A stretch of DNA of 64,000 nucleotides from Sulfitobacter pontiacus (GCF_040790665.1 NZ_CP160849.1:1947501-2011500); one strand, 5' to 3'. Shown: positions 11,749-43,239, counted from the first letter of the stretch. Notes: generated by a model not told the origin, from the letters alone. Program-made: numbers and translations.

Positions 11749-13959
11749 TTACATCTCTGGCAGGTCCGACAGGATCTTGTCCATCGTCGCGGGCAGGTCA
11801 CGCACCCGCACACCGCAAGCGTCGTAGATCGCGTTGATGATGGATGCGCCTGCGCCGCAGATGCCCAGCTCTCCGATGCCTTTGGCCTGCATGGGGTTCG
11901 CCCAAGGGTCACGTTCCTGCACGAAGTTCACGGTCAGCTGTGGCACGTCAAGGTTTACCGGCACGTGGTATTCAGCCAGATCGTTGTTCACCAGATGGCC
12001 GTCGCGTTTGTCGAACATCAGCTCTTCGGTCAGCGCCATGCCGATGCCAAAGGTCATGCCGCCCAGACATTGCGAGCGCGCTGTCTTGGCGTTCAGGATG
12101 CGACCGGCGGCAAAGCTGCCGTGCATCCGGCGCACGCGCGTCTCGCCGGTGACGCTGTTGACACCGACCTCGGCAAAGAATGCACCGAAAGTGGCCTGGC
12201 GGCGGTCGGTCTGGGTGTCACCCTTCTTGATCGTGCCCCTGACCGTGAGCGGGCCATCCTTCGTGAATTCCGGCAGATCGGCGCGACGGTTGTTGGCGGT
12301 GGCGACACCATCTTGCAGGGTCAGGTCACATTCCTCTACGCCCATAGCCTTGGCGATCTTTTTGCGCAGGGCTTCGCAGGCGACAAAAACCGACCCGCCC
12401 GAGGATGCGGCCCCCCAGCTGCCACCGGATCCGGCGGCTTTGGGCAGGCTGCTGTCGCCCAAACGCACGGTCACACGGTCCGAGGGCACGCCCAGCATCT
12501 CGCCCGCAATCTGGGTGAGGATCGCATAGGTGCCCGTGCCGATGTCGGTCATATCGGTTTCAACGAGCAGGCTACCGTCCTGGTTCAGGGTCACGCGGGC
12601 GTGGCTTTCGCCCAGCATATTGACGCGAGTGGCAGAGGCCATGCCGTAGCCGATCAGCCATTCACCATCCGTCTTGCCGACCTCGCGGCTGTCCCAGCCA
12701 AAGGTCTTGGCCCCATCATCCAACGCCTCGGCCAGTTTGTGGGACGAGAATGCGCGCCCGTCTGACGGGTCGACATCCGGAATGTTGCGTTTGCGCAATT
12801 CGACAGGGTCGATGCCACTTGCGACCGCCAGTTCGTCCATCGCGATTTCAAGCGCGGTGATCCCAACCGCTTCCCCCGGCGCGCGGACAGAGCCTGCACA
12901 CATGCGGTTGATCCGCTTGATGTGCATCCCGATCTCGCGGTTCTCACCACGGTAAAGGAATGGCGTGGCCTGGGCTACCGGCTCTGCAAAGCTTTCGTCC
13001 ATCAGTTGTGACACGGTGGAATCGTGCCCGATGCCGGTCATGCGCCCGTCGGCATCCGCGGCGAGCTTGATGTGCTGCACGGTCTCGGATCGACGCATTG
13101 TCGCTTCTAGCACCTGCTGGCGCGTCAATACGACAGCCACCGGTGCCCCCAGCTCGCGCGCGGCGAGCGCCGCGGCCACGGCCTCGTGGCTGATCCCCAG
13201 TTTGGAACCGAAGCCCCCCCCCACGAACGGGGCCAGAATATGGACATTCTCTGGGTCGATCCCAAGGGCGTCGGCCAGTTCATTCACATTGTATTTGAGC
13301 ATCTGGTACGACCCGCGCAGGGTCAGCTTGTCGCCGTCCCATTGCGCGATCGCGGCGTGGGGTTCCATCGCCGACGAGCTATGCCCGCCGGTGCGATAGG
13401 TTTCGTCCACGGTATAGGCAGCCTGCGACAGGGCGGCGTCCAGATCACCTTGGGAGGATTGTTTTTCCTTCGGTGTCTCGATCTCTGCCGTTTCCAGGTC
13501 GGTGACCGCATCGTCGGGCGTGATCTGAAGCTCGACCATATGGGCCGCGTGGCGGGCCTGCTCGAACGTATCGGCGACCACCAAACCCACGGGCTGACCG
13601 ACATAGGAGATCTTGCCGTCTGGCTGCACCGGTGCTTCGTTCGCGGTGCCTTGGGCGGGATTACGCAGGAAGGTCTTGCCGTGGAACACACCGCGCACCC
13701 CATCCAGCTTGCGGATCGCCTCGGCGTTCAGGCCGGTGACCTGACCGCCCGCGACAGGGGCGCGGACCAAAACGCCTGTCATCATGCCTGTCGGCTGATC
13801 CTCATGCGCATAGGTGGCGCGGCCTGATACTTTCAGCGGGCCGTCAGGACGGTCCATGCCAGTGTGGATCAACCCCTGAACCGTGGCATCCAGCCGGTTG
13901 CGGTCATCGGGTTCATCCATCGTCAGTTCGGCGGTCGAAATATTGCTACCGTCGGTCAT
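11749..13959 (-). CDS. Molybdenum hydroxylase large subunit (PaoC/xanthine dehydrogenase family)
   Basis: A 736-residue catalytic subunit binding the molybdenum cofactor. The start [12 protein letters not shown] overlaps the stop of the FAD subunit. Seen are the hammerhead domain ([13 protein letters not shown]), the cofactor-binding [11 protein letters not shown] and [13 protein letters not shown] segments, and the catalytic glutamate near the C-terminus ([11 protein letters not shown], Glu697). The order 2Fe-2S, FAD, Mo subunit matches E. coli PaoABC (YagTSR), which oxidises aromatic aldehydes. The real substrate cannot be told from sequence. A longer reading frame reaching 14475 is only read-through of the neighbour's region. 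Confidence 0.88.
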
Positions 13960-22267: not shown

Positions 22268-23017
22268 TTAAATCCATTCATGCTTCATTGTGCGTCTTCG
22301 AGGAGTCTGACGGCTCGGGGTTTGACGGGATGTATCATAGCTGTGGCCAGACCAAGCCAAGGAACCGATGATCCGCACGCGGTTGGCGTCATCTCCGTGC
22401 CTCAGTTCAGTGCGGCAATCGGGGTTTTCTGATCTCAGCAACAACCCATCGTCGATCAGCTCAATCCTTTTGATCCTGGTATCGCCTTCGATATCAACGA
22501 CGCCATAAATCTGCCCATCTCGGACATCCGTTTGCCGTCTGTCTAAGAGAACCAGATCCCCATCAAAAAGCATGGGTTCCATGCTGTTCCCCCGTACACT
22601 GCAAACAACGCATTTTTCGGCAACCAGTCCTCTTTCTATCATCCAGTCGCGTCTGAAGGCCACCGGGGCAAGCTGCTGGGCGTTTTCCCCGCTGGTACCC
22701 GGACCAGCTGAGAGACTGACATCAAAACGCTCAACAAATGCGAAGTCTTGAAAGAGTTCGACTTTCCGATGGCTGCTAATGTGGTCTGGCTCATTACTTG
22801 ACCGTGGGGGGCCGATATACAGCTCCAATCCAAGGGCTTCACAAATTTTTAAAGCTTTATCTATCCGTGGCAGGGATCTCTTGCTGTCAGGACGGATCAC
22901 ACTTCGGATGGCGTCCTTGGTCAAGTTTGCAGATTGCTCGACCGCAAAGGCGTTCGTGCCAAGCTCTTCAAGCCTGTCAGCAATAATCTTCTCAAAGGAT
23001 TTTTTCTCGAAGTCCAT
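22268..23017 (-). CDS. Prophage repressor, LexA/S24 type
   Basis: A 249-residue repressor. Residues about 8-70 form the DNA-binding domain (VEQSANLTKDAIRSVIR), and residues 100-230 the S24 peptidase domain with Ser145 (RGNSMEPMLFDGD) and Lys183 (DTRIKRIEL). A candidate self-cleavage site is Ala104-Gly105 in SLSAGPGTSG. Such repressors hold the lytic promoter off and can cut themselves after RecA activation, so SOS induction is plausible; Mu's own c repressor is not of this type. It diverges from the early operon across an operator-rich gap. Upstream frame extension to 23101 would cover the operators and is not preferred. Confidence 0.88.
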   Translation of the reverse strand: MDFEKKSFEKIIADRLEELGTNAFAVEQSANLTKDAIRSVIRPDSKRSLPRIDKALKICEALGLELYIGPPRSSNEPDHISSHRKVELFQDFAFVERFDVSLSAGPGTSGENAQQLAPVAFRRDWMIERGLVAEKCVVCSVRGNSMEPMLFDGDLVLLDRRQTDVRDGQIYGVVDIEGDTRIKRIELIDDGLLLRSENPDCRTELRHGDDANRVRIIGSLAWSGHSYDTSRQTPSRQTPRRRTMKHEWI

Positions 23018-23112
23018 ATTCGGGAAAATGCCCGATAAATTTATGTTTGACAATCGGGTAATCATCCGAATATAAATTCGGAAGAAAGCCCGAACAATCA
23101 AGAGGCGAGAGC
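23018..23112. promoter_or_regulatory. Divergent immunity region with candidate operators
   Basis: The 95-bp gap between the repressor and the first early gene carries a perfect palindrome TCCGAAT-ATAA-ATTCGGA (23065-23082), plus half-sites TCGGG/CCCGA at 23020-23024 and 23031-23035, AATCGGG around 23052, and CCCGA near 23088. The repeated TTCGG/CCGAA core suggests one binding protein with several sites, most likely the repressor, controlling both directions. Seen in sequence; the binding partner is inferred. Confidence 0.65.
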
Positions 23113-31892: not shown

Positions 31893-32143
31893 GCCGCCGC
31901 TCTGACATCGTCACTGATCACGCGGTGGTCCGTTATCTTGAGCGGGTATACGGCGTGGACGTGAAGTCCCTGAAGCGCCGGATCGAGCTGGTGACGCGAG
32001 AAGGCCGCGACCAGGGCGCGAATGCGGTCAACAGCGGCGGCGTCCATTATGTTTTGAGCAAGAGTGGCAAAGTCACCACGCTCTATGGCTGCAATGACAC
32101 CGTCTCAAGACGCGGTCAGCGGTGGAGGGCGCGCCACAAATGA
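31889..32143 (+). CDS. Hypothetical phage protein
   Basis: An 84-residue protein (MSRRSDIVTDHAVVRYLERV; RRGQRWRARHK). The pattern TDHAVVRYLERVYGVDV is frequent in small Rhodobacterales phage proteins of unknown role. Overlaps Gp16 and the Mor-like gene by 4 bases each. Confidence 0.68.
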   Translation: MSRRSDIVTDHAVVRYLERVYGVDVKSLKRRIELVTREGRDQGANAVNSGGVHYVLSKSGKVTTLYGCNDTVSRRGQRWRARHK

Positions 32144-32511
32144 CAAAGGCCCCCAAGACCCCTGCAAACGTCCAGGTCTACGAAGACATTCTCGGCACGG
32201 ATGGCGCAGTCGAGTTCCTCCTGACCTTTGGCGGCGCGGAGCTCTACATGCCCACCGATCCAAAGGGTGGATCGAAGGTTGCTCAGCTGGTCGGTATCGA
32301 AAAGGCCCGCGCATTGGCCGATGCATCGCACGCCATGAAGGCCCGCATTCCGACCGCGAAAAGGTGGATCGCTCAGGTCCTTAAATCAAAAGGCTTGCCC
32401 GTTGCAGAAATTGCACGCAAATTGCACATGACCGATGTGACCGTGCGAAAGTATCTCGCGGACGAGTTCACATCGGAAGAGACCTTTTCCAAACAAATGA
32501 AGCTGTTCTGA
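32140..32511 (+). CDS. Mor-like middle/late transcription activator
   Basis: A 123-residue protein fitting the Mor/C family. The N-terminal half is the dimerisation part (VEFLLTFGGAELYMPTDPKGG, cf. the Mor strand), and the C-terminus is a helix-turn-helix (GLPVAEIARKLHMTDVTVRKYL). In Mu, Mor turns on the middle promoter and C the late ones; here a single protein may do both. It ends the early operon, 5 bases before a palindrome (32519-32534) that recurs at 42107, a candidate target. Confidence 0.8.
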   Translation: MTKAPKTPANVQVYEDILGTDGAVEFLLTFGGAELYMPTDPKGGSKVAQLVGIEKARALADASHAMKARIPTAKRWIAQVLKSKGLPVAEIARKLHMTDVTVRKYLADEFTSEETFSKQMKLF

Positions 32512-32516
32512 CGCCG

Positions 32517-32543
32517 CCCCGCAAGCGCTTGCGGATGTTTTGA
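32517..32543. promoter_or_regulatory. 27-bp repeat with palindrome, copy 1
   Basis: The 16-base perfect palindrome CCGCAAGCGCTTGCGG (32519-32534) is followed by ATGTTTTGA. The same 27 bases recur at 42105-42131. Here it separates the activator gene from the lysis and head operon. It could be an activator site or a hairpin terminator (6-bp stem, GCGC loop, then a T-rich stretch). Confidence 0.6.
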
Positions 32544-32613
32544 ACCCGCATCAAACGCCATTTTAGACCCCACAAGGTAGCGCGCCGCCCGTGCTTCGCG
32601 ATTGGGGTCCACA

Positions 32614-33480
32614 ATGAAATTCAAAAATCATATTGCCCAAGGCATCCCGTTTGATCGCGCACAGAACATTGGCGGCGTGATCACACCAACCATCGTCGTT
32701 TTGCATGACGCTGCCGGGCGCTTGGAACATGGCAACTCTGCCAATTACCTGCGGACTGCCCCGCGTGGCGTGTCGGTTCACTTCATCCTCGAGCGTGATG
32801 GCTCAATCTCTCAGCAGGTACCCACCAACCGCCGTGCCGGGCACGCCGGGACATCGCATTACCACGGGCGAGATGGTGTCAACGATTTCTCTATCGGTAT
32901 CGAGATCGTCAATCCTGGTCGGATGACGGATGCGGGCAACGGGAAAGCCCGTGCGTGGTACAAGCAGGAATTCGACATCTCTGAGTTCGGCATCCAGGCT
33001 GTCACCACTCCTGAGCATGGCAGCGGGCTTTGGATGGATTATACCGAGGCGCAAATTGAGGCAGGCGAAGCGCTTTTGAATGGCCTGTTCGGATACATCC
33101 CCACACTGACCGACATCACCAGCCACTGGTACATCTCCCCAGGTCGCAAGGTCGACACCAATCCGCTGTTTCCCTTGGCGCAGATGCGTGCGCGGGTCTT
33201 GGGGCGTGACGATGTTCAGTCGGCGGAGGCGGATGAGGCGTCCGCGCCAGCACACCAGGAAGATGAAATGGTTGCGATCAACGTGCCCGGGAGCACGCTG
33301 AATATGCGCCGCTGGCCATCGTTTAATCCAAATGTGATCTCGACCATCGCTGACGACGTGGTCGTGCCCGTCATTCGCGAAGGAACCTTCGACGGTCGTG
33401 CCTGGCTGAAGGTCCGTCACGGCGGACTTGAGGGCTGGATCGTCAGATCTCACGCCGACCCGATCACCCAATCCAACTGA
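32614..33480 (+). CDS. Endolysin: N-acetylmuramoyl-L-alanine amidase with SH3 domain
   Basis: A 288-residue lytic enzyme cutting the amide bond between muramic acid and the peptide. The Amidase_2 domain (residues 25-190) has the zinc ligand His31 (VVLHDAAG), a second His in SVHFILERDG, and ITSHWYISPGRKVDTNP. A C-terminal bacterial SH3 domain (GSTLNMRRWPSFNPNVIST ... GWIVRSHAD) probably binds the wall. No signal peptide is seen, so release depends on the holin-like genes downstream. ATG 32614 is preferred over TTG 32602. Confidence 0.9.
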   Translation: MKFKNHIAQGIPFDRAQNIGGVITPTIVVLHDAAGRLEHGNSANYLRTAPRGVSVHFILERDGSISQQVPTNRRAGHAGTSHYHGRDGVNDFSIGIEIVNPGRMTDAGNGKARAWYKQEFDISEFGIQAVTTPEHGSGLWMDYTEAQIEAGEALLNGLFGYIPTLTDITSHWYISPGRKVDTNPLFPLAQMRARVLGRDDVQSAEADEASAPAHQEDEMVAINVPGSTLNMRRWPSFNPNVISTIADDVVVPVIREGTFDGRAWLKVRHGGLEGWIVRSHADPITQSN

Positions 33481-33498
33481 AACTCTGAGGAACTCGAC

Positions 33499-33717
33499 AT
33501 GTTTAAAGAAACGAAATCCCCCTTCCTGTCTCTGGGCGTCCTTGGCGGCGGCGGTGCCATCATCACCGGTCTTGCCCAAATCGCAGGCTACGCTGTCACA
33601 CCCGCTGATGCCGCTGATCTTAGCACGGCCGTGACAGGTCTGATCACATCCGCTGCGGGTCTGATCGCCGTGATTGGCCGGATCCGTGCGACCAAGCGCG
33701 TTTCGCTGCTGGGCTAA
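33499..33717 (+). CDS. Holin-like small membrane protein
   Basis: A 72-residue protein with two hydrophobic helices (GVLGGGGAIITGLAQIAGYAV; TAVTGLITSAAGLIAVIGRI) and a basic end. Position right after the amidase and this topology suggest a holin letting the endolysin cross the membrane. Confidence 0.72.
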   Translation: MFKETKSPFLSLGVLGGGGAIITGLAQIAGYAVTPADAADLSTAVTGLITSAAGLIAVIGRIRATKRVSLLG

Positions 33718-33723
33718 GCTTCA

Positions 33724-34134
33724 ATGAGCCTGGAATGGTCCGCCATCACGCTTGCAAGTCACGCGAGCCTTGTGCTTGCCACCGTGTTTGCGTTTCTCAA
33801 CGCAATTACGGTGCGCAGGTTCTGGGTTGCACAGCCTTCACTTGCAGTTTTTGAACGCCTGGAAAGTCCGATCTTTGCAATCGCCGCCGCTTTGATGGTT
33901 GAGCGCAGCTACTACGTTTGCGCCAGACTGTTCGTAAAGACGGACCTCAATCTCTGGGAGGCACATCCGGCACCGGAGGTCCTTGCGTTCATGCTGGCGG
34001 CAAGCATGTTCTGGCTGGCAATCTCAATCCGCACGATGGGCGAGATCGGCGGCCTCGGCGCAAAGCGTGCCTTGATCGTTCAATCTGGCACGATGGTGGC
34101 GTTGTTCACGCTGCTCTCCTGGGGGCTTTGGTAA
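33724..34134 (+). CDS. Membrane protein of the lysis module
   Basis: A 136-residue protein with about four hydrophobic helices (ITLASHASLVLATVFAFLNAI; SPIFAIAAALMVERSYYV; VLAFMLAASMFWLAISI; IVQSGTMVALFTLLSWGLW). It may be a second holin or a spanin-related factor; no family is recognised. Its stop overlaps the next start. Confidence 0.68.
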   Translation: MSLEWSAITLASHASLVLATVFAFLNAITVRRFWVAQPSLAVFERLESPIFAIAAALMVERSYYVCARLFVKTDLNLWEAHPAPEVLAFMLAASMFWLAISIRTMGEIGGLGAKRALIVQSGTMVALFTLLSWGLW

Positions 34135-34529
34135 TGGACTGGTTGTCGTGGCTCTCGGAGGGCCAAAAGCTCCTCGGCTTTGTCGTGCTGGTCGTCACCT
34201 CTCTGGCGGCCTTGGGGCGCTGGTTCTGGGGCCGTGTCTCGACACGCGTCAATGATGGCATGTCGGGTCTGCAGGTGGGTCATCAGAGCATCGAAAAGCG
34301 CTTGGTCGCCGTCGAAGGCAGTCTGGGAAAAGTGAACGATGATCTTGGCCGAGTTCGTGTTCGCATGTCGACGATCGAGTCCCGGATCGATCTGCTGGCT
34401 ACAGCCCGAGAACAACATGATCTCGCCATTCTGGTCGCACGCATAGGCGCAAGTCAGGAAGCCCAGGGCAACATGGTCCGCATGCTTTATGAGGCGGCAC
34501 AGCGCGCGGGCAAAGGCGGAGACAAGTGA
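34134..34529 (+). CDS. DUF2730-like membrane-anchored coiled-coil protein
   Basis: A 131-residue protein with one N-terminal membrane helix (LLGFVVLVVTSLAALGRWFWG) and a long coiled coil (KRLVAVEGSLGKVNDDLGRVRVRMSTIESRIDLLA). This is the Mu gp25/DUF2730 pattern found between the lysis and terminase genes; it may be a spanin-like part of the lysis apparatus. Confidence 0.75.
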   Translation: MDWLSWLSEGQKLLGFVVLVVTSLAALGRWFWGRVSTRVNDGMSGLQVGHQSIEKRLVAVEGSLGKVNDDLGRVRVRMSTIESRIDLLATAREQHDLAILVARIGASQEAQGNMVRMLYEAAQRAGKGGDK

Positions 34530-34831
34530 TGTTCAAGGCCTGGCCAATCGAAACCGTCGAGACCGAATTCCGGCGCCTGAAGGTGCTTCAGTATCTGGCG
34601 GGCATTCCCGGCTATGAGGCCGCGGCATCGGTCATGCGTTTACACTGCGGTCGCATCGGTGTGCCGACCAACGCCGACCAGGCAGTCGCGGCAATCGCGT
34701 GGCTTGACGAAATGGAGCTGGTCACGACCCGCGACTATCAAGGCGAGCCCATCGCACGCCTGACCAACAAGGGCCGTGAGGTCGCGACCGGCGCGACCAG
34801 TATGCCCGGCGTAATCCGTCCCGACCCATAA
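34529..34831 (+). CDS. VpaChn25_0724-family phage protein (paralog 1)
   Basis: A 100-residue protein with the winged-helix-like family pattern: RLKVLQYLAGIPGYEAAASVMRLHCGRIG, then VAAIAWLDEMELVTTRDYQG and a final REVATGATSMPGVIRPDP. It occupies the Mu gp26 place. The next gene is a related copy, so this family has been duplicated in tandem. Role unknown. Confidence 0.82.
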   Translation: MFKAWPIETVETEFRRLKVLQYLAGIPGYEAAASVMRLHCGRIGVPTNADQAVAAIAWLDEMELVTTRDYQGEPIARLTNKGREVATGATSMPGVIRPDP

Positions 34832-34851
34832 CCTTCTTTGGAGCCTGACCC

Positions 34852-35145
34852 ATGGCAGACAGCACCGAGACCGAACACCGTCGCCTCGCGATCCTCAAGC
34901 ATCTTGAGCGATCTTCCGAGTTCACATCCAATGCGTCAATCCTGATCGATGTCGTGCGCGGCGTCGGCATCGCCTCTTCGGACGCGCAGATCCGGGGAGC
35001 ATTGGCGTGGCTGGACGAACAGGAACTGATCGAGATGACCGATCACGGTCATGTTGTGATCGCGACAGCAACCGTGCGGGGCGCAGAGGTTGCGCGCGGC
35101 CTTGTCCAACATCCAGGCGTCAAGCGTCCAACGGCACGGCGCTGA
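34852..35145 (+). CDS. VpaChn25_0724-family phage protein (paralog 2)
   Basis: A 97-residue relative of the preceding protein: RLAILKHLERSSEFTSNASILIDVVRGVG, IRGALAWLDEQELIEMTDHG, EVARGLVQHPGVKRPTARR. The shared frame and the WLDE.EL motif show common descent. A TTGGAGC ribosome site precedes it. Confidence 0.82.
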   Translation: MADSTETEHRRLAILKHLERSSEFTSNASILIDVVRGVGIASSDAQIRGALAWLDEQELIEMTDHGHVVIATATVRGAEVARGLVQHPGVKRPTARR

Positions 35146-35146
35146 C

Positions 35147-35719
35147 ATGCCGCCGCCCCGCAAGATCGACCTCATTCCGCAGGAGATCAGACTGCGCCTT
35201 CAGGACCTGCTGAAGGAGCGCGGCTTCTCTGACTATGTCGCGGTAACCGAAGATCTGAACTTCTGGCTTGAAGAGGCCGGTCTCGAAATGCGCGTGGGCA
35301 AATCGGCGGTCCATTCCTTTGGCCAGGAATATGAACAGATGGCCCGCGCCCAAGAAGAGGCATCCGCTTGGGCCGTGAGCTGGATGGAGGGCAATGGTCT
35401 CGAGGAAGAGGCCAAGCGCCACAATGTGTTGTTCCAGATGATCACCACGCTCGCCTTCAAGGTCATGAAGTCAGCGATGCTGAAGGAAGGTGATGAGATC
35501 GATCCGAAAGAGCTGCACTTCCTGGGCAAGATGCTCAAGGACGTGATGAGCAGCTCCGGCATTCGCGAAAAGCTGACCGCTGATGAGCGTTTGCGAATTG
35601 CCAAGGAAGAACGCGCCAATGCCGCAGAGACGGCAGTCAAGGCAGCGCGCCAGGCGGGCATGTCCTCAGAGACGGCCGAGAAGATCAAAGCCGATATCTT
35701 GGGGGTTTCAAATGGGTGA
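35147..35719 (+). CDS. Mu gp27-like protein (DUF3486), putative small terminase subunit
   Basis: A 190-residue helical protein of the DUF3486 family. The N-terminus PPPRKIDLIPQEIRLRLQDLL resembles the DNA-binding helix-turn-helix of the family; the rest is helical with LHFLGKMLKDVMSSSGIREKL and an Ala-rich tail. In Mu this gene precedes the large terminase and is regarded as the small subunit. ATG follows the previous stop by one base. Confidence 0.87.
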   Translation: MPPPRKIDLIPQEIRLRLQDLLKERGFSDYVAVTEDLNFWLEEAGLEMRVGKSAVHSFGQEYEQMARAQEEASAWAVSWMEGNGLEEEAKRHNVLFQMITTLAFKVMKSAMLKEGDEIDPKELHFLGKMLKDVMSSSGIREKLTADERLRIAKEERANAAETAVKAARQAGMSSETAEKIKADILGVSNG

Positions 35720-36035
35720 TCTGAAGGCGGCAAAAGCCAGTGGTTCATTGCGCGCAATCAACATAGTTGATTTTGATGCATTCAAGAAGCACCGGCATCC
35801 CGGAAGCTACCATGTTGTTCCCGGAGAGACGCGTGGAGAATGGTTCTTCTGGTATTGCTGCCCCTGTGGCTGCGGCTTGATCGCACCCATCACTGTCGGC
35901 GCAAACTTCAAACCACCACAAAGCCCCAGTTGGAACTGGAACGTCTCCACGACTGAACCGACGCTGACGCCTTCGGTCCATCACAAGGGGCATTGGCATG
36001 GCTGGTTGACCGATGGCTACTGGAGGTCGGTATGA
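35712..36035 (+). CDS. DUF6527-like Cys-rich phage protein
   Basis: A 107-residue protein with WFFWYCCPCGCGLIAP, a probable zinc-binding knuckle, then SWNWNVSTTEPTLTPSVHHKGHWHGWLTDGYW rich in Trp and His. This matches small DUF6527 phage proteins of unknown role. Overlaps gp27 by 8 bases. Confidence 0.75.
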   Translation: MGDLKAAKASGSLRAINIVDFDAFKKHRHPGSYHVVPGETRGEWFFWYCCPCGCGLIAPITVGANFKPPQSPSWNWNVSTTEPTLTPSVHHKGHWHGWLTDGYWRSV

Positions 36036-36352
36036 CATTGCCCCGCTTCAAGAGCGATGAAATCCGAGGTTTCAAGGTTCATGTCGATAGTCTGCTTGGG
36101 GTTCTGAGTGTCTCGCATGATGGTTTGATCACCTGGGACGATCTGCAGTACATCAAGAACATGGTCTGGGGTGATCTGATCCGGGCGATCGAGGTCTACC
36201 CGGCGCAGGCCGATGTCGTGAATTCGTGCAACATGCGTCATCTGTGGCGGCTCGGGGCACATGATTTCTGTCCGGACCTGCTGGGAAATGACGATGGCAG
36301 CGACAGCCTTCAGGGGCGACATGCCGTTGCCTGGGCGGAGGCACGCGGCTGA
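36032..36352 (+). CDS. Hypothetical phage protein (DUF7694-like)
   Basis: A 106-residue protein. HDGLITWDDLQYIKNMVWGDLIRAIEVYPAQADVVNSCNMRHLWRLG resembles DUF7694 phage proteins. TGGAGG precedes ATG 36032, which is preferred over the in-frame start at 35993. Confidence 0.68.
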   Translation: MTLPRFKSDEIRGFKVHVDSLLGVLSVSHDGLITWDDLQYIKNMVWGDLIRAIEVYPAQADVVNSCNMRHLWRLGAHDFCPDLLGNDDGSDSLQGRHAVAWAEARG

Positions 36353-36627
36353 TGGCAACTCCAGCTGAAATTGCCAATGACATGGCGGCACATGCCGACT
36401 ACTGGCAGAAACGCGACCGCAAGACCTTTGAGACCTGCAACGACGCCGCACGGGTCATCCGGATGTTTCTTGGTGGGCAGAATGTTGATGGGCGCACATA
36501 TTACGGACTGCATCGACGGCTGCTTGATCTGACTTCCAGGTACTCTGCCGGCAGGGTTGCTGGAGCACCGAACTTCGATCGCGCGTTGCGGATTTTGCAT
36601 CAGCTGCGCGCGGAGGCCACCAAATGA
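36352..36627 (+). CDS. Hypothetical phage protein
   Basis: A 91-residue helical protein (EIANDMAAHADYWQKRDRKTFETCNDAARVIRMFLGGQ) of unknown family. It overlaps the previous stop by one base and the terminase start by four. Confidence 0.62.
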   Translation: MATPAEIANDMAAHADYWQKRDRKTFETCNDAARVIRMFLGGQNVDGRTYYGLHRRLLDLTSRYSAGRVAGAPNFDRALRILHQLRAEATK

Positions 36628-38321
36628 CCGCACCCATTTCCAAAGCCGACTGGGAACGCCAGCGACGCGAGGCGACTGATGTTATGCCTCAGCTGGTGGG
36701 TAGCGTTGGTTTGCCAAAGGTTCTTCTGCCATATCAGGCCAAGACGGTCGGCCTGCTCGACACGGTATCGACGAAGGTGCTGTTCGTCGAGAAGTCGCGC
36801 CGGATCGGGCTGACATGGGCCCTGGCAGCCTATGCTGTGCTCAGGTCGGCACGGGCGAAGTCAGCACGCGGCATGGACGCGATGTATATCTCCTACTCTC
36901 AAGAGATGACCCGCGAATTCGTGGATGCCTGCGCGATGTGGGCCCGCGCGTTCAACATCGCTGCTTCAGCCATCGAGGACGGATTGTTCGAAGAAGGCGA
37001 TGACGAAGGAGACAAGTCGATCCAGACGTTCCGCATCCGCTTTGCCTCCGGCTACCAGATCAAAGCGCTCAGCTCGGCTCCCCGTGGCTTGCGCGGCAAA
37101 GAGGGTGTGATCATCATCGATGAGGCCGCTTTCGTCGATAGCCTGGGCGAATTGATCAAGGCGGCAATGGCGTTTCTGATCTGGGGCGGTCAGGTCATCG
37201 TCTGCTCGACGCATGATGGCGCGGACAATCCCTTCAATGAAAACATCCAGGACATTCTTGGCGGCCGGCTGCCCTATGAGCACCTGCACATCGATCTGGA
37301 TGAAGCGTTGACCGATGGGCTTTATGAACGGATCTGCCTTGTAGGCGGCAATGACTGGTCGCCAGAGAGCGAAGCTCAATGGCGACAGGATCTGATCGAC
37401 TTCTATGGGGATGGTGCCGACGAAGAACTGTTCTGCATTCCGTCCCTCAGCTCTGGTGCCTGGTTGCCCGCCCCGCTGATCGAGGCGCGCATGACTGCCA
37501 CAGCTCCGGTCCTGCGCCTGGAACTGCCCGGTGACTATCTGCACATGAACGATCTGCAGCAAAAGGCGCTCATGGCCCCATTCCTCGAAAAGCTCGAGGA
37601 CGTGCTTGGGCAGATCGACATGGATTTGCGTTACGCGGCCGGGTTCGACTTTGCGCGCGTCGCGGATCTGAGCGTTATGCCCGTGCTGGCGATCGAGCAG
37701 AACCTGAAGCGGCGTGAAGTGTTCTCGATCGAGATGCGCAATGTGCCTGGGGACGAGCAGAAGCTGGTCGTTGGTATGGTGCTGGAAAAGCTACGAGAAC
37801 GGCTACTGGGCGCTGCCTTTGACGCCACCGGCATGGGTTGGACCGTGGCTGAAGACATGGGCCGCAAGTTCGGCCTGCGTGAGGCAGAGGACGGATCAGG
37901 TCTCATCTGGGCGATCAAGTTCACAGAGGACTGGTACCGGATCAATATGCCGCCGCTTAAAACGGCCTTTGAAGACGACATGATCGCGATAGGTGCCGAC
38001 GAGGATCACCTGAGCGATATGCGCTCGGTCAAGCTTGTGCGGGGCATTCCTCGTGTCCCGGCGATCCGGACCAACGAAAAGGGCGAAGCAAAGGACAAGA
38101 AGGGCAAGAAGCGGCACGGCGACTATGCCATCGGACTGGCGTTGGCACATTTTGCTGCCCGCATGCGGTGGGTCGAATACGGCTACCGGGCGGCTAGTTC
38201 GGGTTTGCGCCACCAACGTGCTGAAGGCCGCATGCGCGATACGCCCAGCAACGACGATGGGTTGGGCCGCCGGAACGCTTTTGATGGCCCACTTGGGGCA
38301 AGACTGAGGGGAAGTGTCTGA
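36624..38321 (+). CDS. Large terminase subunit (Mu gp28-like)
   Basis: A 565-residue DNA-packaging motor and nuclease. The Walker A variant is SRRIGLTW (58-65) and Walker B is VIIIDEA (162-168), typical of the Mu gp28/Terminase_6 group. The C-terminal RNase-H-like nuclease starts with AGFDFARVADLSV, whose Asp should bind metal, and ends with a basic linker (DKKGKKRHGDYAIG) containing another acidic ligand. It packages phage DNA from integrated copies with flanking host DNA in Mu-type phages. Confidence 0.92.
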   Translation: MTAPISKADWERQRREATDVMPQLVGSVGLPKVLLPYQAKTVGLLDTVSTKVLFVEKSRRIGLTWALAAYAVLRSARAKSARGMDAMYISYSQEMTREFVDACAMWARAFNIAASAIEDGLFEEGDDEGDKSIQTFRIRFASGYQIKALSSAPRGLRGKEGVIIIDEAAFVDSLGELIKAAMAFLIWGGQVIVCSTHDGADNPFNENIQDILGGRLPYEHLHIDLDEALTDGLYERICLVGGNDWSPESEAQWRQDLIDFYGDGADEELFCIPSLSSGAWLPAPLIEARMTATAPVLRLELPGDYLHMNDLQQKALMAPFLEKLEDVLGQIDMDLRYAAGFDFARVADLSVMPVLAIEQNLKRREVFSIEMRNVPGDEQKLVVGMVLEKLRERLLGAAFDATGMGWTVAEDMGRKFGLREAEDGSGLIWAIKFTEDWYRINMPPLKTAFEDDMIAIGADEDHLSDMRSVKLVRGIPRVPAIRTNEKGEAKDKKGKKRHGDYAIGLALAHFAARMRWVEYGYRAASSGLRHQRAEGRMRDTPSNDDGLGRRNAFDGPLGARLRGSV

Positions 38322-38560
38322 TGGGTACACGTAGCAAACGCATAGTCCGAAATCGAAAAGCATGGGATGGACCCTACGTGGCAAGGTTCGGTGACGGCTG
38401 GGTCGCATTCCGGATTGGAAAAACCCTCCATTCCGCTTCGCGCCAAGTGACCCTTTACCATAGATCTCGTCGGTGGCGGCGCTCTCACGAATTTACTGGA
38501 ATTCTCGGAAGAACACCTTTCGAAGCCCTCAGTCGGTACCGACAGCAGGAAGCGAGATAG
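38321..38560 (+). CDS. Hypothetical basic phage protein
   Basis: A 79-residue, very basic protein (MGTRSKRIVRNRKAWDGPYV; YHRSRRWRRSHEF). No family is recognised. Its stop lies within a 17-base tandem duplication (38551-38584). Confidence 0.6.
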   Translation: MGTRSKRIVRNRKAWDGPYVARFGDGWVAFRIGKTLHSASRQVTLYHRSRRWRRSHEFTGILGRTPFEALSRYRQQEAR

Positions 38561-38584
38561 CAATGGGAGCGAGATAGCAATGGG
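38551..38584 (+). repeat. 17-bp tandem duplication
   Basis: AGCGAGATAGCAATGGG occurs twice in direct succession (38551-38567, 38568-38584). It spans the stop of the basic protein gene. The first copy creates ATG GGA GCG AGA TAG, a four-codon frame, just before the real start of the next gene. Confidence 0.85.
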
Positions 38585-38732
38585 AGCGATCTTCATCGGG
38601 ATTATCATAATGCTTGTCGGCGGCATCATTATGGCAAACGCAGCTTTCTCTGATCGTTCGCAGAACGGCTTTCTAGTTTGCCTCGCTGGTCTCGGATTGC
38701 TGATCGGTGGCATCATCGAATTGATCTTTTAG
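38580..38732 (+). CDS. 50-residue two-helix membrane protein
   Basis: A small gene, MGAIFIGIIIMLVGGIIMAN plus a second hydrophobic stretch (GFLVCLAGLGLLIGGIIELIF). It lies between the terminase and portal genes. It may be a second holin or superinfection factor; no family is assigned. Confidence 0.65.
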   Translation: MGAIFIGIIIMLVGGIIMANAAFSDRSQNGFLVCLAGLGLLIGGIIELIF

Positions 38733-38753
38733 GATCTGAGAAGGAGCCTTTAA

Positions 38754-40397
38754 ATGGCAAATAAGCCTGTTTTACTCGACCGCTGGGGCCAGCCCGTCAA
38801 GCGCGCCGCCCTGACCGAAGAAGTTGCCGCAGCCACTCTCGGCGGCGTGCGGTCGCCGCTATCCGGTCACCCGGGCGACGGGCTGAACCCCATTCGCCTG
38901 GCAAACATCCTGCGCGAAGCTGACCAGGGCGACCCGGTGCGCTATCTGGAGCTCGCAGAGGTGATCGAGGAGCGCGACCCTCATTACCTTGGCGTGCTCG
39001 GGACGCGCCGCCGGTCGGTCAGCCAGATCGAGATCACGGTCGAAGCGGCATCGGATGAAGCGTTCGACGTTGAGATGGCCAACATGGTGCGCGAATGGCT
39101 GGATCGTGACGAGCTGAGCGACGAGCTCTTCGATATTCTGGACAGCATCGGCAAAGGCTATTCGTTCACTGAAATCATCTGGGACACGTCAGAGGGCCAG
39201 TGGCAGCCTGCGCGCCTGGAATGGCGAGACCCGCGCTGGTTCCGGTTCGATCGCGTCAATCTGGCCACGCCCATGAAGCTCGATGACCACGGCCAGGAGG
39301 TTCCTCTCGAGGCGTTCAAGTTCATCTATGCCAATGTGAAGGCCAAGTCCGGTCTTGCGCTCCGGTCGGGTTTGGCGCGGGTCGCCATGTGGGGCTGGAT
39401 GTTCAAGGCCTTCACACAGCGCGACTGGGCCATCTTCAGCCAGACCTATGGTCAGCCCCTACGGTTGGGCAAATGGGGGGCTGGCGCCAGCGAAGCGGAC
39501 AAGAACACGCTTTTTGATGCCGTCGCGAATATCGCAGGGGATTGCGCGGCGATTATCCCCGAGAGCATGTCGATCGACTTTGTGGAAACCAGCAATGTCG
39601 GGGCCTCGGCCGACCTCTATGAAAAGCGCGCCGACTGGCTGGACAAGCAAATCTCGAAGGCGGTGTTGGGTCAGACGGCAACGACCGATGCCGTCACGGG
39701 TGGCCTTGGCTCAGGCAAGGAGCATCGTCAGGTCCAGGAGGACATCGAGCGCGCGGATGCCAACGCATTGGCAGCGATCCTCAACCGGGATCTCATCCGC
39801 CCGTGGATCCAACTCGAGCACGGGCCTCAGAAGCGGTATCCGCGGCTGAAGATCGGGCGTCCGGAACCAGAGGATCTGAAGCAGATCGCAGACGCGCTCG
39901 GCGTGCTTGTGCCAATCGGCTTGCAGGTCAGCGAGAGCGAGATCCGCGCCAAGTTCGGATTTGCGGATCCAAAGCCGGGTGACCGGATCCTGATGGCGTC
40001 CAAGCCAGATATCACGCCACCAGCCGCATCGGTCGGGACCGCTGGGACCGAAACCGCCCCTCAGAGCAAATTTGAATACCGTTTGAATACCCTTCCGCCT
40101 AAATCCGGCGTCCTTGCCCCTCAGGCGGAGCAATCGCCCTCAGAGGCGATTTCTGGCGCTGAGCCGGTTGACGCGCTGACGGCCCAGCTTCAGGAGGCAG
40201 CAAAGCCCGCTGTTGCAGCGATGATTGCGCAGGTCGAAATCATGCTCGAGAGTGCGGGCTCGATCGAGGAACTGCGCGAGATGTTCTTCGCGGCATATCC
40301 CAATCTGGACGCCAGCGCTATTGGTCGTGCGATTGCCGATGCTATGGAGGCCGCAGACGCAGGTGGGCGGGCACTGGCGGAGACCACAAGTGGCTGA
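38754..40397 (+). CDS. Portal protein (Mu gp29-like, DUF935)
   Basis: A 547-residue portal protein forming the ring through which DNA enters the head. The DUF935 pattern is clear: LRRRRS-type VLGTRRRSVSQIEITVE, GYSFTEIIWDTSEGQWQPARLEWRDPRWFRFD, TYGQPLRLGKWG, and VLGQTATTDAVTGGLGSGKEHRQVQ. A Pro/Ala-rich C-terminal extension follows. AAGGAG precedes ATG 38754. The stop overlaps the head morphogenesis gene. Confidence 0.92.
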   Translation: MANKPVLLDRWGQPVKRAALTEEVAAATLGGVRSPLSGHPGDGLNPIRLANILREADQGDPVRYLELAEVIEERDPHYLGVLGTRRRSVSQIEITVEAASDEAFDVEMANMVREWLDRDELSDELFDILDSIGKGYSFTEIIWDTSEGQWQPARLEWRDPRWFRFDRVNLATPMKLDDHGQEVPLEAFKFIYANVKAKSGLALRSGLARVAMWGWMFKAFTQRDWAIFSQTYGQPLRLGKWGAGASEADKNTLFDAVANIAGDCAAIIPESMSIDFVETSNVGASADLYEKRADWLDKQISKAVLGQTATTDAVTGGLGSGKEHRQVQEDIERADANALAAILNRDLIRPWIQLEHGPQKRYPRLKIGRPEPEDLKQIADALGVLVPIGLQVSESEIRAKFGFADPKPGDRILMASKPDITPPAASVGTAGTETAPQSKFEYRLNTLPPKSGVLAPQAEQSPSEAISGAEPVDALTAQLQEAAKPAVAAMIAQVEIMLESAGSIEELREMFFAAYPNLDASAIGRAIADAMEAADAGGRALAETTSG

Positions 40398-41544
40398 CAC
40401 GGTCCGCGCCACCTTTCGCCAACCGTTCAAGGAGCAGGTCGCAGCCTTTCGGCTGAGGTTGGGTGATCTCGTTCCGACATCGAGATGGGATGACATCTCC
40501 AAGGCCCAGCACGATCGTGCCTTCATGGTTGCGGGCGCGGTAAAAGCCGATCTGCTGGCTGACCTTGGTGCCGCTGTCGACAAGGCGATTTCGCAAGGGA
40601 CCGGACTGGAAGAGTTCCGGCGCGACTTTCGCCAGATCGTGGAGCGTAGGGGATGGCATGGGTGGACGGGTGAAGGTAGCCTCAAGGGAGAGGCCTGGAG
40701 AACGAAGATCATCTACAGAACGAACATATTGACGACGATGGCAGCTGCGCGTCATGCCCAGCACATCGACGGCAATTTTAAATTCTGGGTCTACGAGCAC
40801 AGTGGCGCAGCGCATCCGCGTCTCGATCACTTGTCCTGGAACGGGCTGATACTGCCTTCAGATCATCCTTTCTGGGCCACGCACTATCCCCCAAACGGCT
40901 GGGGCTGCGGTTGTAGGGTGCGTGGTGCCCGCACCTTGGCTGGTGCGATCCGCGTGGGCGGCGATCCTTCGAAAACATTGCCCGACGATTGGGAGGCAAT
41001 TGACCCACGCACAGGCGCTCCGACAGGGATCGACAGCGGTTGGGATTACGCTCCAGGCGCGACCGTTAGCGACGTCGTACTTGCGATGAAGAACAAGGTG
41101 TCAGATCTGCCCAGACAGCCCTCCATCGATATGATCCAAGACTGGCTCTCCGGCAGTGGCTTTGAAAGCTGGGCCGCCGAACCGGTAAACTCTTGGCCAC
41201 TCGCCCGGCTAACCACCAAAGACGCTGATCGGTTCGACCTGGTCAATCCGGTCGCGTGGCTGTCGGCGGAAACGATCGCGCGCCAGGGCCGACGCTACCG
41301 TGACCTCACGCCACGCGATTATCAACTGGCGCAGACCGTCATCGACAGGGCGAGCCAGAATGTTGCAAAGCGTGGCAACACGCTGATCTTCCTGCAGCCC
41401 GATCCAAGCCAACCCGGATATGTTCTGGTTCTCACGGCGACGGTCCGAAACGGTGAACTTTACCTGACCAGTTTTCGCCGCCTGACCGAAGCTCAAGTCA
41501 AAGCAAACCGGCGCTTAGCCCCGTTGCTCAGACAGGAGGGGTGA
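40390..41544 (+). CDS. Head morphogenesis protein (Mu gp30 / SPP1 gp7 family)
   Basis: A 384-residue minor head protein. The gp7 domain contains YRTNILTTMAAARHAQHIDG, HPRLDHLSWNGLILPSDHPFWATHYPPNGWGCGCRVRG, the conserved Cys-containing end of the Mu F family. The C-terminal 150 residues (about 235-384) include a phage Barnase/EndoU-like segment (RYRDLTPRDYQLAQTVIDRA). The start is GTG 40390, overlapping the portal stop. Confidence 0.9.
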   Translation: MADTVRATFRQPFKEQVAAFRLRLGDLVPTSRWDDISKAQHDRAFMVAGAVKADLLADLGAAVDKAISQGTGLEEFRRDFRQIVERRGWHGWTGEGSLKGEAWRTKIIYRTNILTTMAAARHAQHIDGNFKFWVYEHSGAAHPRLDHLSWNGLILPSDHPFWATHYPPNGWGCGCRVRGARTLAGAIRVGGDPSKTLPDDWEAIDPRTGAPTGIDSGWDYAPGATVSDVVLAMKNKVSDLPRQPSIDMIQDWLSGSGFESWAAEPVNSWPLARLTTKDADRFDLVNPVAWLSAETIARQGRRYRDLTPRDYQLAQTVIDRASQNVAKRGNTLIFLQPDPSQPGYVLVLTATVRNGELYLTSFRRLTEAQVKANRRLAPLLRQEG

Positions 41545-41548
41545 TACG

Positions 41549-42049
41549 ATGATCACCGTAGAGCTGGAAGACGCAGACGTAGAGCGGATCCTTGCCAGAC
41601 TTTCTGCCAGCCTGTCTGACATGTCCGAGGTCATGAATGAAATCGGTGAGCAGCTCGAGTTCGAAACCGTAAAGCGCTTTGAAGATGGGGTCGCTCCGGA
41701 CGGCACATCGTGGGCCCCGAAATCCCCGACCACGATCGCGGCCTATGAACGCCGGGGGCAGACTGTCGATGTACGGCCGCTTTTTGGTCCCAATGTTGAT
41801 GGGCAACCTCTGCGCTCGAGCTTCTTTCGTGACTATGGTCCTGACTTTGTCGAATTGGGCACCAACAAGATCTACTCGGCAGTCATGCAGTTTGGTGCTG
41901 CCAAAGGTGCATTCGGAACGGATGCGCGTGGTGGCTCAATCCCTTGGGGAAACATCCCCGCGCGTCCCTTCCTCGGGATCTCTGATCAAGACCGTCTCAA
42001 CATCGCCGCGATCGTCGAGGAATGGCTCGAGGACATCGTAGAGGATTGA
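41549..42049 (+). CDS. Virion morphogenesis protein (Mu gpG family)
   Basis: A 166-residue protein of the Phage_tail_S/virion morphogenesis family. Seen are MITVELEDADVERILARLSA, RFEDGVAPDGTSWAPKSPTT, LRSSFFRDYGPDFVELGTNKIYSAVMQFG, and the end IPARPFLGISDQD. GpG helps complete heads or join tails. GGAGGG precedes the ATG, 4 bases after the previous gene. Confidence 0.9.
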   Translation: MITVELEDADVERILARLSASLSDMSEVMNEIGEQLEFETVKRFEDGVAPDGTSWAPKSPTTIAAYERRGQTVDVRPLFGPNVDGQPLRSSFFRDYGPDFVELGTNKIYSAVMQFGAAKGAFGTDARGGSIPWGNIPARPFLGISDQDRLNIAAIVEEWLEDIVED

Positions 42050-42104
42050 CCGAAGCCGCCCGTCGCGCCTAGTCTGCCCTCAATTCCCGACAACATCTGA
42101 ACCA

Positions 42105-42131
42105 CCCCGCAAGCGCTTGCGGATGTTTTGA
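42105..42131. promoter_or_regulatory. 27-bp repeat with palindrome, copy 2
   Basis: Identical to 32517-32543, with CCGCAAGCGCTTGCGG at 42107-42122. It lies 56 bases after the gpG gene and about 30 bases before the protease start, again at an operon boundary. Confidence 0.6.
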
Positions 42132-42160
42132 CGTGTCCTCCTGCGGCAAATATCGCTGCA

Positions 42161-43239
42161 TGAATGTAGCCCCTCAATTCACAGCGCTTATGAGCGCCCA
42201 GGCTCTGCCCGATGTCGCAGTTCTTGGCGGTGCGCCCGAATGGATCCACCTGCTTCCTGCGGGCCTGATCCAGACGGGCGACAAGCGCGGTCCCTATCTC
42301 GCTGCGAATTTCGAACAGATCATTTCCGAGAGCTTCCTCCACACCCCCAAACTCCCCATCGACATCAATCACGCCATCCACCTGCGCGCGCCAAAAGGCG
42401 AAGAAGCCCCGGCGTTCGGCTGGATCGTGGCCATGCAGGCGCGTGAAGACGGTCTGTGGGGCAAGGCGGAGTGGACAACGGCTGGCGCTGAGCTGGTCAC
42501 ATCACGGGCCTACCGCGGCATCAGCCCCGTTATCCGGCACAGGGCAGACAAGACGGTCACGTCGATCGAATGCGTCAGCCTGGTCAATAAACCCAACCTG
42601 CGCGGTCTGACTGCGCTTCATCAACAACAGGACATTCCCCCAATGGATTGGACGAAATTTCTGGCCGACATGCTCGGCCTGCCGGAGACGGCAACCGATG
42701 AGGAAATCAAAAAGGCGCTGAAGGGCAAGATGTCCGGTGGCGAAGACAAGCCCGCGCTGCAGTCGCAGATGTCGGAAATCGGGGTAGCACTTGGCCTCAG
42801 CGCAGACAGTGCGCCAGCCGACATTCTGATTGCGGCGCAGAGTGCATCGAGTGACCAGGGCGCGGACGAAACCATCGTCGCACTGCAGGCCGAAATCACC
42901 ACGTTGGCAACCTCGCTGAATGAACTTCGCGATACCGGTGCCAAGACCGCAGCCACGGCTTTTGTCGATGACGCGATCAAAGCAGGCCGCGTGGGCGTCA
43001 AGCCAATGCGCGATCGCTACATCTCCATGCACATGAAGGATGCGTCTGGGACCGAAGAGCTGATCGGCGCGATGCCCGTGCTCAGCAGCTCTGGCACCTC
43101 GATCATCGCACCTGCCCGCAAGGATGGTGAGCTCTCGCTGAACTCCGAGCAGCTGAGCATTGCCAAGATGCTGGGGCAGGATCCCAAAGACTATGCCGCC
43201 ACGCTCGCTGAAGAGCAGGCCAACTTGGAGGACAACTGA
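42161..43239 (+). CDS. Phage protease/scaffold (Mu gpI-like)
   Basis: A 359-residue protein. The N-terminal part is a Mu-I type serine protease (WIHLLPAGLIQTGDKRGPYLAANFEQIISESFLHTPKLPIDINHAIHLRAPKGEEAPAFGWI ... VSLVNKPNLRGLTAL), needed for capsid maturation. The C-terminal half is acidic helix, the scaffold part. As in Mu I/Z, an internal ATG at 42643 (MDWTKFLADMLGLPETATDE) could give a free scaffold of about 199 residues. The start is uncertain: ATG 42161, ATG 42190 or GTG 42133; none has a strong ribosome site. Confidence 0.87.

Follow-up and report, generated by a model that had tools for sequence, protein, structure and literature searches.

The prophage and its late region

The window considered here, a 64,000-nucleotide stretch of the Sulfitobacter pontiacus genome, contains a Mu-like prophage with a MuA-type transposase, an AAA ATPase at the position of MuB, GemA, a DUF3164 protein and a Mu I-like protease. 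It matches the phages RC1, RS1 and ThpS-P1, the hosts of which are Rhodobacter, Rhodovulum and Thiobacimonas. Read by eye only, the product of 22268-23101 resembles a repressor of the CI/LexA type. The features that concern us are the following.

32140..32511, + strand: gene for a Mor/C-like late activator of 123 amino acids (PHROG 836), the last of the early/middle operon (PHROG profile, identity to the RC1 protein, profile-profile comparison)
32389..32460, + strand: helix-turn-helix (HTH) of the activator, residues 84-107, the presumed DNA reader (weak Pfam HTH matches, AF2 helices, covariation with the site)
32494..32508, + strand: QMKLF, a motif of the beta-clamp-binding type, residues 119-123 of the activator (sequence pattern)
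32517..32543, + strand: copy 1 of the repeat, putative activator site 32519-32534 plus ATGTTTTGA (window match, paired-site comparison, 28-phage anatomy)
32559..32564, + strand: predicted -10 element CATTTT of the lysis/packaging promoter, with the start predicted near 32571 (AnnnT register, 28/28 phages)
32614..33480, + strand: endolysin (amidase), the first late-operon gene behind copy 1 (PF01510, E=1.6e-19)
42105..42131, + strand: copy 2 of the repeat, putative activator site 42107-42122 plus ATGTTTTGA (window match, paired-site comparison, 28-phage anatomy)
42148..42153, + strand: predicted -10 element AAATAT of the protease/capsid promoter (AnnnT register, 27/28 phages)
42160..43239, + strand: Mu I-like protease, its ATG at 42160 coinciding with the predicted transcription start (PF10123, E=1.1e-43)

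The initial annotation had reported a 27-bp repeat with a perfect 16-bp palindrome at two operon boundaries, and both the positions and the full identity of the copies are confirmed exactly. The 27-nt sequence, CCCCGCAAGCGCTTGCGGATGTTTTGA, occurs at 32517-32543 and 42105-42131 and at no third place in the 64-kb window, in which the palindromes at 32519-32534 and 42107-42122 are also the only perfect ones of at least 16 bp. Each consists of 5-bp arms around a 6-bp spacer (CCGCA-AGCGCT-TGCGG) and is flanked by ATGTTTTGA. Copy 1 starts 6 nt past the stop codon of the 123-residue gene, and copy 2 sits in the gap between the gene at 41549-42049 and the protease gene, with only 28 nt from its end to the protease ATG. 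When both strands of the window are scored with a matrix built from relatives, this window having been left out, each copy reaches 32.3 bits; the next-best score, 13.2, is the reverse strand of copy 2.

The bare 16-mer occurs once more in the 3.55-Mb host genome, in an apparent coding region and without the TTTTGA tail, and it is also found in many unrelated viral contigs. As a diagnostic mark it was rejected, the exact matches in unrelated contigs being mostly coincidental and some of them terminator-like; in three such contigs (L100, L105 and L118) the identical palindrome lies between A and T runs and has the look of a terminator. The repeat is nonetheless non-random, because it is duplicated together with the flanking ATGTTTTGA and at a fixed distance from the -10 element.

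A paired site across related phages

It had been proposed that the palindrome be looked for in related phages. Activator homologues were gathered from genomes of the same family, viral contigs and phage records, each with at most 19 kb of downstream DNA. Degenerate scans with a single protein gave few relatives and an alignment of the whole family was too diverse; an alignment of eight sequences worked. In 46 non-redundant loci with both an activator homologue and a protease, the region 3' of the activator was compared with that 5' of the protease. The mean of the best 20-nt match was 17.5 for the two regions of one phage, 14.3 for regions from different phages and 13.3 for shuffled sequence, and when phage labels were permuted among these 46 distinct Mu-like (pro)phages, 0 of 100,000 permutations reached the observed sum. 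Most of the 46 phages therefore own a phage-specific version of the site at both places; in 6 of the 46, the paired match is only 13-14 of 20, no more than shuffled sequence gives.

A quite different repeat, CCCGAAACTGCNTCCCCGGGC, stands at the equivalent two places in PeaS-P1, the activator of which is too divergent for tblastn. In that locus (L039) this unrelated repeat lies at both operon heads, at reverse-complement positions 12124 and 20059, and a divergent Mor-like protein with the end DAQLSLPFQND is present. A second copy was looked for in the Sinorhizobium phages Aussie and StopSmel and was not found; the head module differs there.

The identity of the copies within many phages is what would be expected of repeats kept alike by recombination, through recent duplication or gene conversion, and having no regulatory role. 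Such an origin is scarcely credible, as dozens of divergent phages carry duplicates at these two positions, in differing sequences, the identity of the duplicates is limited to the site, and a -10 element at a fixed distance is kept in otherwise different flanks.

Anatomy of the predicted promoters

Spacing was assessed in the 28 phages in which the dyad centre was found automatically; 11 further centres, which had been moved manually into the register of the family, in part with the ATG as a guide, are excluded from these figures. The five arm positions of the dyad are paired in 27, 27, 21, 24 and 26 of the 28 phages, and the inner positions less often (6, 7 and 20). A hexamer follows the dyad centre by 32-38 nt, its AnnnT core at 33-37 nt (register -1 to +2), in all 28 first copies and in 27 of the 28 second copies, compared with chance means of 2.2 (copy 1) and 3.2 (copy 2) at thirty shifted offsets. 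If +1 is placed 7 nt beyond the 3' end of the hexamer, the dyad centre lies at -44.5 in copy 1 and at -45.5 in copy 2 relative to the predicted start. The layout is thus that of a promoter of the Mor/C type, with a 16-bp dyad of 5-6-5 form, a -10 element and no consensus -35 element.

A conserved GTTTT adjoins the dyad and falls within the spacer of the predicted promoter. A T stretch is present in the spacer of some Mu late promoters (PMC4461284), and a similar element here would explain the non-palindromic part of the repeat with no need for a terminator.

In 27/28 phages the protease ATG follows the centre of copy 2 by 44 or 45 nt, which is the predicted +1, and an ATG 40-49 nt past the centre of copy 1 is found in only 3/39 phages. 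The protease mRNA is therefore predicted to be leaderless, both here and in most of the relatives. The protease probably starts at ATG 42160, the GTG at 42133 in the mechanical list of open reading frames (ORFs) probably being wrong.

The initial annotation had also considered a duplicated hairpin terminator or attenuator. On this reading, each copy would form a GC-rich stem-loop with TTTT behind it, stopping transcription where the middle operon ends in one case and ahead of the protease operon in the other. Both copies do pass a mechanical terminator scan, a stem of 5 bp or more precedes T4 in both copies in this phage and in 5 of the other 38, and in some unrelated contigs the 16-mer is placed between A and T runs, as in genuine terminators. 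Against this, RNA folding of the two copies is no better than that of shuffled sequence (z -0.4 and -0.7), 3 nt separate the stem from the T-run, and the end of copy 2 is just 28 nt from the protease ATG. Across the family, hairpin and T4 are found in both copies in 6/39 phages and in neither copy in 24/39, whereas the dyad, the -10 element and their spacing persist. Nor would terminators, which need no common reader, be expected to be identical within a phage and to change between phages. Because the hairpin and T-run are not conserved, termination is not the general explanation of the repeat, and we consider it improbable as its function, although a minor role of this kind may exist in this one phage.

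The activator

The preferred reading, in which the repeat is a site for the phage's own activator, turns on the protein encoded directly upstream of copy 1. It matches the PHROG 836 profile, 'late transcriptional activator', over residues 3-123 (E=9.9e-23), as do 32/32 aligned members of the family, and it is 47% identical to the RC1 protein of that name. When the family profile was compared by hhalign with a Mor/C profile that includes Mu Mor and C, the probability was 90.9 (E=1.1e-6), and the alignment runs through the GGxxxYxP segment (GGAELYMP / GGGQVYIP), the HTH and the Q..L[FL] tail. We call the protein 'Mor/C-like', and not a member of Pfam Mor (PF08765), because its match to that family (E=0.053) scores 14.0 bits, below the gathering cut-off of 24.9. 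A crystal structure of Mor was reported in 2004. Foldseek with the AF2 model of the activator (pLDDT 74.8) returned no significant PDB match and did not list Mor, and a sequence search of the PDB with the activator gave no match to Mor.

The AF2 model places helices at residues 74-83, 88-95 and 99-107, and this region is presumed to read the site. Between phages, the distance between sites correlates with the distance between HTH sequences (r 0.60), and a partial r of 0.43 is left when the N-terminal domain is taken into account (1/5000 permutations). Shared ancestry also contributes to this covariation and confounds the test, because the N-terminal domain itself keeps a partial r of 0.29. In phages with CCGCA/TGCGG arms, the recognition helix mostly reads (S/T)DVxVR. 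Where the helix departs from the DVxVR pattern (loci L005, L068, L075, L194 and L207, with VAVSKYL, VAIWKYL, MPTVARW, HKTVSKW and ESTARLY), the CCGCA/TGCGG arms are gone too and other arms are found.

These observations also bear on whether the two copies could be operators of some other phage regulator (a repressor, a Ner-like or another DNA-binding protein) or of a host factor. Many dimeric regulators recognise perfect palindromes, and the prophage region encodes further HTH proteins in addition to the CI/LexA-like product noted above. However, the sequence of the site follows the Mor-like HTH, its centre-to-start distance is that of Mor at Pm, and it is confined to the heads of the two late operons; a host factor would, moreover, leave the phage-by-phage differences between sites unexplained. 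Such a regulator seems to us, if anything, a shade less probable than termination.

The C-terminal tail

The activator ends in ...SKQMKLF, behind a stretch (residues 111-117) with a pLDDT under 50 in the AF2 model. Its phage relatives end in QLSLF, QLDLF, QPSLF, QMSLL, QLPLI and similar motifs, following a variable linker. The bacterial clamp-binding consensus is QL(S/D)LF (PMC9690074); several relatives have exactly QLSLF or QLDLF, and the family thus carries, as a sequence pattern, a clamp-type consensus in a flexible C-terminal tail. With the tail defined as Q..[LM][FLI] or Q[LMPF].[LF].[LF] within the last 16 residues, it is present in 50/55 activators that adjoin phage structural genes as against 2/23 homologues without them (Fisher p 2.6e-12, uncorrected for ancestry). 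The background frequency is 22/1831 ORF ends (1.2%), the ORFs being those of the fetched loci and not of whole genomes.

Similar motifs end the classical proteins. Mu Mor ends in YQPSLL (QPSLL) and Mu C in RRHQPDLFSPETPK (HQPDLF plus a few residues), and 11 other Mor/C proteins, from Pasteurella, Pseudoalteromonas, Shewanella, Vibrio, Pseudomonas and enterobacterial phages, have QRDLF, QRRLF, QPDLF, QPNLF, QPELF, QFDMF, QMPLL, QGDLF or QGKLF at their C-terminus or close to it. The Q of the tail is invariant in an alignment of 17 Mor/C sequences in which the mean column identity is 37%. Mu Mor and C, with their C-terminal QxxL[FL], are in locus L131, and further cases are in L244-L255.

Some further observations may be recorded. 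In classical Mor/C proteins (P0002, L245, L247, L234 and L237), the N-terminus carries another QxxL[FL]-like motif (QHDLF, QSELF, QLDLL, QNDLF), which was not seen in the alphaproteobacterial group. Tail-less Mor-like genes without recognised phage structural genes nearby are found in genomes of the same family (L055, L058-L061, L063, L065-L067, L070, L073, L076, L077, L080, L082, L085 and L088), with several copies in one genome, G386; in L085 and L088, a tRNA-like sequence can be read on the opposite strand, directly 3' of the gene.

In Mu prophages that are defective in replication, the middle and late promoters are generally regarded as silent. In our literature search, from which subscription papers were mostly out of reach, there was no statement that Mor or C binds a sliding clamp and none on the replication dependence of Mu late promoters. 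The clamp-type tail suggests that late transcription is coupled to replication. In its general form, the proposal is that the Mor/C superfamily docks on the host beta clamp by means of the C-terminal QxxLF, so that late promoters would be efficient only on DNA undergoing replicative transposition; this would be a T4-like coupling of independent origin, employing a sequence-specific activator. We regard this proposal as evenly poised between right and wrong. The clamp would be an enhancer in vivo that is not needed for basal activation, because Mor activates Pm in vitro with RNA polymerase (PMC4287176). Other partners for the tail, such as RNA polymerase or the activator itself through self-association, are possible.

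A proposed late-promoter switch

We consider it probable, at approximately 0.88, that both copies serve as operators, each of a late promoter under the control of the Mor/C-like activator that the phage itself encodes. In the late phase of the lytic cycle, this protein, as a dimer, would bind the 16-bp dyad CCGCA-N6-TGCGG, which would stand in for a -35 element, and would recruit host RNA polymerase of the sigma-70 type to the -10 element downstream. Copy 1 would thereby start the lysis/packaging operon, as the counterpart of Mu Plys, and copy 2 the protease/capsid operon, as the counterpart of PI. Where Mu has a two-step relay (Mor to Pm, then C to the late promoters), a single activator whose gene closes the early operon would act on both late promoters directly. 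Less firmly, we propose that QMKLF anchors this protein on the beta clamp of the host, by which late transcription would be linked to replicative transposition. Binding, activation and the transcription start points are what we infer from the sequences.

The suggestion of the initial annotation that the repeat may be the site of the Mor-like activator, replacing the separate C protein of Mu, is in keeping with a geometry that agrees with that of Pm within 1-2 bp and with positions equivalent to those of Plys and PI. Shared control of the two operons by this protein is likewise favoured, from comparison of sequences, by the variation of the site with the activator HTH across phages and by the conserved -10 element.

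If this is correct, there would be a late-gene promoter code for a large group of transposable phages of the Rhodobacteraceae, such that, once the activator gene is known, both late promoters could be located in raw sequence. Activator and putative operator are seen to change together. A clamp-type motif ending Mor, C and their relatives would, if true, physically link replication with late transcription, and this link could be tested by changing a few residues in phage Mu, the classic laboratory phage.

Comparison with known systems

At Pm of Mu, Mor binds as a dimer to a 16-bp element that replaces the -35 element and has its centre at -43.5; two inverted repeats of 5 bp flank a G/C-rich spacer of 6 bp (PMC4390567). 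The present sites have the same 16-bp, 5-6-5 form, a similar centre, no -35 element and a recognisable -10 element, and the activator gene lies, like that of Mor, shortly behind gemA and encodes a C-terminal QxxL[FL]. They differ in their sequence and in that they head two late operons directly. Mor activates Pm alone and the Mu late promoters need C, which recognises a related dyad at each of Plys, PI, PP and Pmom (PMC4287176). The operon heads are equivalent to those served by Plys and PI (lysis; the gene I protease), and the dyad upstream of the -10 element and the T stretch in the spacer are shared as well. Unlike the C gene, however, the sole Mor/C-like gene here is the last of the early operon and is followed at once by the lysis genes, and in contrast to PI the protease mRNA is predicted to be leaderless.

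The activator of RC1 and RS1, also of PHROG 836, resembles the present one in sequence and in its QMRLF tail, and a site lies both behind its gene and before the head maturation protease; the arms of the site have diverged (CTCCACA...). The paper on ThpS-P1 and PeaS-P1 (PMC5488378) makes no mention of a promoter, palindrome or terminator. What appears to be new here is the predicted use of a single activator for both late operons, of phage-specific operators and of a leaderless head operon.

T4 late transcription provides the remaining comparison. T4 uses its own specificity factor, co-activator and clamp, whereas the present system would combine a sequence-specific DNA-binding activator with the host beta clamp, binding to which is a prediction. 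The resemblance lies in late-gene factors that carry, on a flexible tail, a C-terminal motif of the clamp-binding type; gp33 and gp55 of T4 bind the sliding clamp gp45 in this way (PMC9690074, PMC7892883).
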